NCBI RefSeq assembly: GCF_018139545.1
Contig: NZ_JAGSPJ010000001.1
Location: 434,001-498,000, forward strand
Direction: 5' to 3'
DNA: 64,000 bases
Source: Affinundibacterium fentianense
Lineage (GTDB): Bacteria > Pseudomonadota > Gammaproteobacteria > Burkholderiales > Burkholderiaceae_D
This document shows, in pieces, positions 5,847 through 6,050 of the stretch. The position numbers and the translations under genes were made by a program. Under the pieces are notes generated by a model, which did not search any database, was not told where the DNA came from, and saw only the letters and a list, made by a program, of their open reading frames with translations. Position 1 is the first letter of the stretch. Each line of letters opens with the position of its first letter.

Positions 5847-5878
5847 AAAAAAAAACCGCCAAGCTTGGCGGTTTTTTT
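5847..5878 (-). terminator. Attenuator terminator in front of aroG
   Basis: A perfect inverted repeat, CCGCCAAG/CTTGGCGG at 5856-5871, extended by A/T pairs to 5849-5878. On the minus strand it is followed by nine T residues (5855-5847). It lies 51 nt past the stop codon of the Phe/Tyr leader peptide and 87 nt before the aroG start, so transcripts from the promoter at 6021-6050 must read through it to express aroG. Its 5' arm (ACCGCC, 5872-5867) can alternatively pair with GGCGGT at 5942-5937 inside the leader peptide frame. The repeat is symmetric, so it could also act in the opposite direction. Confidence 0.88.
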
Positions 5879-5929
5879 GGATCGGCTAGGTTCTATGTAT
5901 GTTGATCTTTCTTTTACGTGAACTTACCG

Positions 5930-5995
5930 CTACTCCACCGCCTCAGGCTGGGAATTGCTAAAGTAAAAGTAAAAGTAAAATCGTGCAAATTTCAT
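5930..5995 (-). CDS. Phe/Tyr-rich leader peptide of aroG
   Basis: A 21-codon frame, ATG at 5995 and TAG at 5932-5930, with a GAGG ribosome site at 6004-6001 five bases upstream. It contains five Phe and three Tyr; residues 6-12 alternate FYFYFYF, encoded by alternating TTT and TAC codons. It lies just after a good promoter and just before an intrinsic terminator in front of aroG. This is the arrangement of translation-coupled attenuators such as pheL-pheA. Codons 18-20 contain GGCGGT, complementary to the 5' arm of the terminator, and the preceding CC-A-GCC (5951-5946) can pair with the same GGCGG. A ribosome stalled on the aromatic codons would leave GGCGGT free to form the antiterminator. 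A ribosome at the stop codon would cover it and permit termination. The peptide itself probably has no other role. Confidence 0.85.
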   Translation of the reverse strand: MKFARFYFYFYFSNSQPEAVE

Positions 5996-6020
5996 GAGCG
6001 CCTCAAGATCGAATGGAACG

Positions 6021-6050
6021 ACTATAACAACATCTGCCAAAGCTTGGCAA
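6021..6050 (-). promoter_or_regulatory. Sigma-70 promoter of the aroG leader
   Basis: On the minus strand TTGCCA (6050-6045) and TATAGT (6026-6021) are separated by 18 bp, giving a predicted start near 6014, about 19 nt before the leader peptide ATG. The -35 overlaps a TGCCAAAGCTTGGCA dyad (6035-6049 on the plus strand) that could be a repressor site; it does not match the E. coli TyrR box. Confidence 0.7.

Follow-up and report, generated by a model that had tools for sequence, protein, structure and literature searches.

What controls aroG in Affinundibacterium fentianense, and does the short, strongly aromatic reading frame upstream of this gene take part? The window, i.e. the whole stretch of 64,000 nt that was analysed (contig NZ_JAGSPJ010000001.1, positions 434,001 to 498,000), carries all leader parts on the minus strand. 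Promoter-like site, ribosome-binding site, ORF and terminator precede aroG in this order, as is read directly from the sequence. Based on the sequence comparisons described below, a classical ribosome-mediated transcription attenuator of aroG, which codes for a DAHP synthase, is very probably the best explanation of this arrangement.

Layout of the aroG upstream region

The features are as follows (positions refer to the window):

6050-6021, minus strand: promoter-like site TTGCCA-N18-TATAGT (TTGCCA 6050-6045, TATAGT 6026-6021) with TG before the -10 element, sigma-70-like by sequence
6004-6001, minus strand: GAGG, likely ribosome-binding site of the leader, 5 nt before the ATG
5995-5930, minus strand: leader ORF MKFARFYFYFYFSNSQPEAVE of 21 codons with ATG at 5995 and TAG stop, from the sequence and its relatives
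5971-5957, minus strand: putative control zone Y-F-Y-F-S, formed by the codons that begin 15-30 nt before GGCGG, by expected ribosome geometry
5954-5951, minus strand: segment 1 (UUCC), possible partner of GGAG (5936-5933) in a pairing that could contribute to masking segment 2; weak
5942-5933, minus strand: segment 2 (GGCGGUGGAG), overlapping codons 18-21 and including GGCGGT (5942-5937), from GGCGG conservation
5872-5867, minus strand: segment 3 (ACCGCC), predicted by folding as partner of segment 2 (antiterminator) or of the 3’ arm of the terminator
5878-5847, minus strand: intrinsic terminator (segments 3:4) with a nine-T tail ending at 5847, from folding and alignment
5759-4692, minus strand: aroG, class I DAHP synthase of 355 aa, the presumed controlled gene (NF006723, Pfam DAHP_synth_1)

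A sequence-only reading of this DNA had described the promoter, the GAGG, the 21-codon frame with only Phe and Tyr at residues 6-12, its TAG stop and the complementarity of GGCGGT to ACCGCC, and all of them were recovered at the same coordinates on the minus strand. The GC-rich hairpin with nine T residues, likewise described there, comprises 13 pairs in the MFE structure (5878-5849). Folding of the entire leader RNA (168 nt), which had been proposed as a check, results in z = -4.17 with none of 200 shuffles as good. The assignment of the downstream gene is confirmed by the NCBIfam equivalog NF006723 with 588 bits (cut-off 568) as well as by the Pfam match, and the closest named relatives of the protein belong to Undibacterium and other Oxalobacteraceae.

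The locus shows the typical arrangement of an attenuator in that codons for end products are clustered in a short ORF and an intrinsic terminator lies between this ORF and the biosynthetic gene. When the 400 nt before aroG were resampled 3000 times with a first-order Markov model, no ORF with seven of eight residues F/Y/W arose. Hence an ORF this aromatic is not expected by chance at this site. Leader and aroG would be part of a shared transcript from the promoter-like site, with a start placed by means of the -10 element. A motif of this kind (TTGYYH-N16-19-TANWNT, at most 120 nt upstream of the leader ATG) is present in 39 of 66 Oxalobacteraceae-type leaders, with 25 nt as the commonest spacing, and was not matched within these 120 nt in the remaining 27.

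Distribution in the family, the order and beyond

The aromatic run is kept in relatives, as the attenuator proposal had called for. Within 400 nt of aroG, 78 of the best 80 AroG loci from named genomes contain an ORF with at least five of eight residues F/Y/W. In one locus (L073) the leader is present, displaced farther upstream with repeats between leader and aroG; for another Oxalobacteraceae genome (L035) both the ORF test and a search with the covariance model R1 were negative. In the genus of A. fentianense 23 of 24 loci pass the same ORF test, and the exception (L097, genome G004) again has its leader farther upstream. Two genus genomes have direct repeats of the CTCTGTGTCTC..GTGGTGAGATTTT type that separate the terminator from aroG (L073:1043-1500 and L097:933-1326).

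R1 was built from 61 leader sequences. With E ≤ 0.01 as the limit, a match is obtained in 136 of 145 family genomes, counted by model score; nine of these matches, likewise by score alone, are weaker (E 3e-7 to 2.4e-3). In the genus 24 of 25 genomes match with E below 1e-14, while the 25th (G007) has aroG as a fragment at a contig end. The genome of the window exhibits a single match, directly before aroG. It also encodes a second class I DAHP synthase (L114, G000:C57:373439-374443) of ~50% identity, with neither an aromatic leader ORF within 500 nt upstream nor an R1 match. Strong second matches were obtained in two genomes. In G539 an aroG follows each copy and the gene downstream is shared, in G522 a contig end truncates the second copy; assembly overlap is the likely reason. 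Among the weaker second matches (E above 1e-3) three were inspected, and none of them shows this leader.

For the order, AroG matches were obtained in 154 of 200 genomes. From the better-scoring ones 100 upstream regions were chosen by hand, thus not at random; for one of them (L137), at a contig end, only 240 bases are available. An aromatic-rich ORF is accompanied by a CCGCC...GGCGG-T terminator in 33 regions, 64 have neither, three the terminator only and none the ORF only (Fisher 2.4e-23, phylogeny ignored). Of 1000 Markov-resampled order regions only 10 satisfied the ORF criterion. Two of the three terminator-only regions (L152 and L196) have a sparser aromatic leader and the third (L194) has none. 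Positive regions fall into 13 of the 31 order families sampled, with f11 (G034) as a fourteenth, whereas in 18 of the 31 no leader of this type was found within ~460 nt. Outside the order, 40 regions were taken, again not at random, from the 137 of 185 class genomes with an AroG match; two are positive, both from family f63. The two f63 genomes (G387 and G235, loci L215 and L221), although placed outside the order, exhibit the same type of leader and terminator before aroG.

Leader ORF, terminator and antiterminator stand together before aroG in the family as well as in 14 order families, and the region is therefore best read as a leader-peptide attenuator. The comparison, above all the co-occurrence of the parts over these families, thus supports the mechanism that had been proposed from the sequence alone, apart from the designed alternation of Phe and Tyr codons and from the triggering by either amino acid alone.

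Control zone and RNA switch

The control zone was defined by an inferred geometry in which a stalled ribosome covers ~15 nt past its A site, so that stalling on these codons would leave GGCGG free. Zones were evaluated for 95 distinct stretches kept from 111 loci. Dropped were duplicates (L004, L006, L008, L009, L010, L024), two loci with a leader for which the parser chose the wrong ORF or terminator (L097, L012) and loci with no parsed leader (L073, L035, L060, L109, L111-L114), of which L073 and L060 match R1. L001-L003 had been excluded, being duplicates of the window or a terminator-like match. Comparison across families was based on 34 leaders from 14 families (f63 included), consisting of 30 of the 35 order leaders plus L084, L110, L215 and L221; near copies or second members (L116, L119, L134, L151, L178) were omitted.

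With about five codons per zone, the 95 leaders have 478 zone residues, namely 236 F, 124 Y, 28 W, 66 S, 14 H and 10 others, so that F, Y and W account for 388. Each of 33 cross-family leaders has three or more aromatic residues in its zone, and four or five are frequent. Typical zones are YFYFS, as in the window, FFYFS and HFYFS in Oxalobacteraceae, FYFFW in Burkholderia-type leaders, YFWYY in f22 and f63 and FYFW in f3 and part of f49. Trp thereby joins the zone in Burkholderia-type leaders, 24 of 26 of which keep it, and in several others. The FYFYFYF alternation, which the sequence-only reading had regarded as designed to sense both amino acids at once, is not conserved. Tyr positions drift to His or Phe in relatives (e.g. 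FYFHFYF, FFFFFYF, FFTAYFYF), and the constant element of the family is a largely aromatic stretch with F-Y-F at its end.

This end varies little among the 67 Oxalobacteraceae-type leaders. Every one of them uses TTT for the last Phe; the second codon before it is TTT in 65 and the codon after it AGC in 66. The codon directly before the last Phe is TAC (51), TAT (14), CAC (1) or TGG (1), i.e. Tyr in 65 leaders. As TAC and TAT vary while Tyr stays, Tyr is apparently kept as an amino acid under coding constraint, and UUU is kept to the letter. Counted over sequences that are related to one another, so that significance would be overstated, Phe is encoded by UUU in 77% of cases in Oxalobacteraceae-type leaders vs 31% in aroG and in 83% in Burkholderia-type leaders vs 10% in their aroG. 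For Tyr the share of UAU is 54% in Burkholderia-type leaders vs 19% in aroG and 46% vs 43% in the Oxalobacteraceae type. Synonymous choice of control codons affects attenuator sensitivity according to modelling work, as described in the excerpt consulted (PMC1183508).

These data bear on a narrower, compatible version of the attenuator, in which Phe alone is sensed and the codons for Tyr (and Trp) are passengers or fine tuning. The abundance of Phe in the zone, the invariant last TTT and the drift of Tyr positions speak for it, as does the AroR precedent of Corynebacterium, which responds to Phe and not to Tyr in the part of the report consulted (PMC11802643). The retention of Tyr before the last Phe with both of its codons in use, together with the retention of Trp in the Burkholderia type, argues against it and leaves this version possible but rather doubtful. 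We infer that the leader senses Phe and probably also Tyr.

As to the RNA, the family alignment A1 comprises 61 of 68 listed sequences, with L014, L016, L019, L023, L042, L049 and L062 removed by hand. The terminator (3:4) is paired in 100% of cells and shows covariation by double changes at two pairs. Covarying pairs in the 2:3 helix (5942-5937/5872-5867), which had been suggested as a check in Oxalobacteraceae, do not occur there: the pairs are almost invariant, hence covariation is silent inside the family and uninformative. Across families GGCGG follows the aromatic run in 33 of 34 leaders (L135 being without it) and in all 33 stands opposite a CCGCC terminator arm. Relative to the leader ORF it occupies all three reading frames (26/5/2), so that conservation acts on the RNA. 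The peptide ends, e.g. PLAEG and AVEKR, are hence probably by-products.

The 2:3 helix extends further when a leader is combined with its own terminator than after swapping (1.61 vs 1.13 pairs, p = 0.0002, 33 leaders); with one leader per family the median p is 0.01 (range 0.002-0.18). When the stretch from GGCGG to CCGCC is folded in isolation, all 61 family sequences and all 33 cross-family leaders have this helix in their MFE structure. With extra inner pairs the antiterminator stretch is more stable than interior-shuffled versions (mean z -0.82, 25 of 33 negative, p ~1e-5). Its energies (-11.7 to -24.2 kcal/mol) are similar to those of the terminators (-13.1 to -23.4 kcal/mol) in these 33 leaders. 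The core of the window's own 2:3 helix is short, having 6 pairs with an inner extension of 0, and extra pairs are needed across an A-rich bulge. By folding and by cross-family complementarity, antiterminator and terminator exclude each other, and a ribosome that has reached the stop codon would sit on the 5’ half of the former.

Support for the protector helix 1:2 is weak. The CCAGCC/GGCGG hairpin of the sequence-only reading turned out not to be the commonest form, as relatives mostly have UUCCA/UGGAG. As drawn, 1:2 is paired in 91% of cells vs 90.6% in shuffles with one double change (C-G to U-A in L104), and the RNAalifold structure of the family alignment consists of the 2:3 helix alone, with practically no 1:2 hairpin. 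Across families the own pairing exceeds swapped pairing with p = 0.012 (one leader per family, median p = 0.15), and the own duplex energy is slightly better than that of letter-shuffled sequences (mean z -0.32, 24 of 33 below 0).

The following course of events is proposed. RNA polymerase would start near 6014, as judged from the -10 element, with a ribosome trailing on the 21-codon leader, provided that it is translated. With charged Phe-tRNA (and probably Tyr-tRNA) the ribosome would arrive at the TAG and cover GGCGGU of segment 2, whereupon terminator 3:4 would form and leave aroG untranscribed. If charging falls, the ribosome would be expected to stall at the last aromatic codons F10-Y11-F12 and cover segment 1. 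Segment 2 would then be free to pair with ACCGCC of segment 3, and the polymerase could read into aroG.

In Sinorhizobium a leader RNA and its peptide (rnTrpL/peTrpL) act in trans. An additional action of this kind by the terminated aroG leader RNA or the peptide seems unlikely. A terminated transcript of ~170 nt is predicted and peptide C-termini are similar within families, but the GGCGG frame differs between families and the C-terminal residues follow the RNA, so that peptide similarity may be a by-product. Three Burkholderia/Caballeronia loci (L060, L072, L074) keep the FYFYF run and continue in a different frame, with the stop codon elsewhere than in relatives. By this altered frame the stop codon would move and the switch would perhaps be altered.

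Other control of aroG and known attenuators

Repression of the TyrR type as main control of aroG, with the leader attenuator in a minor role, appears quite improbable. A TyrR-type HTH domain (TIGR04381) is encoded in the same genome (G000:C50:499680-499820) and, of 12 additional genomes of the genus that were searched, in 11; other control of aroG is possible for this reason. However, a search of L084 for the TyrR-box-like pattern of E. coli, TGTAAA-N6-TTTACA, with up to 3 mismatches gave 3 matches at a chance mean of 2.75, none of them in the leader region. Moreover TIGR04381 is absent from 8 genomes of other families searched, two of which (G027 and G026) carry the leader. A regulon survey describes TyrR and TrpR as absent outside gammaproteobacteria in the part consulted (PMC5343134); the TyrR-domain protein in the genome of the window is contrary to this.

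That the hairpin terminates the upstream gene and the ORF arose by chance is hardly credible: a nitroreductase gene does lie upstream of the leader on the same strand as aroG, but it is the neighbour in 5 of 80 named aroG loci (fetched flank, up to 1500 nt) whereas leader and terminator stay with aroG, ORF and terminator co-occur, and the promoter-like site is located between nitroreductase gene and leader. Since the upstream neighbour varies between loci, the terminator belongs with aroG.

The pheA (pheL) attenuator combines Phe codons in a leader ORF, competing hairpins and a terminator, i.e. the same logic at a different gene. The corresponding Rfam family Phe_leader (RF01859) reaches at best 25.5 bits on the leader (gathering score 55), chiefly on the terminator; altogether the Rfam scan yielded only sub-threshold matches on or around this hairpin. 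In the ilvGMEDA attenuator of enterobacteria a single leader contains codons for several branched-chain end products. It shares the multi-end-product leader with our locus and differs in amino acids (branched-chain) and host.

One zone of about five codons may integrate two or three shikimate end products in an attenuator family spread over the order, with lineages swapping Phe, Tyr and Trp codons around a fixed GGCGG/CCGCC switch. We regard this as quite possible, though still on the doubtful side. For Burkholderiales the leader provides a likely feedback control of the reaction that opens the shikimate pathway. The leader family offers natural variants of a single RNA scaffold with Phe/Tyr, Phe/Tyr/Trp or mixed zones, which would allow a direct test of how the sensed amino acid depends on the identity of the codons, on their position and on the choice of UUU over UUC.

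The aroR-aroF attenuator of Corynebacterium glutamicum, for which Neshat 2014 is reportedly the original paper, likewise has an aromatic leader peptide before a DAHP synthase gene. According to the portions of the reports consulted, attenuation at its Phe-Tyr-Phe leader is relieved under Phe limitation (PMC4046766, PMC11802643), with a response to Phe and none to Tyr (PMC11802643). Compared by description, the two differ in that C. glutamicum is an actinobacterium with a Phe-Tyr-Phe leader whereas Burkholderiales leaders have longer zones, with Trp in several families. Upstream of Acholeplasma aroF the uORFC-13-1 motif is a predicted Phe-coding uORF with terminator; it has 24 representatives from one genus and environmental sequences, and its U-run encodes at least one Phe (excerpt of PMC8632094). 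Again this resembles our locus in having a Phe-coding uORF and a terminator before a DAHP synthase gene, a likeness by description and not by sequence.

The attenuator kind is thus textbook, and leaders of DAHP synthase genes are, in the parts of the sources consulted, already described in Corynebacterium and predicted in Acholeplasma (PMC4046766, PMC11802643, PMC8632094). This narrows the earlier remark that no description was known, which holds for Burkholderiales: no description of their aroG leader family was found in the open-access literature, subscription journals lying mostly outside the search. The consulted parts of PMC2965389, PMC5688073, PMC4603805, PMC10175445, PMC5343134, PMC4046766, PMC1183508, PMC11802643 and PMC8632094 do not describe the leader, and aroG, aroF and DAHP are all absent from the consulted main text of PMC2965389. 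For Burkholderia cenocepacia 82 short 5’ UTRs are reported in the excerpt at hand (PMC5688073), and a prematurely ended aroG transcript may already be contained in these data.
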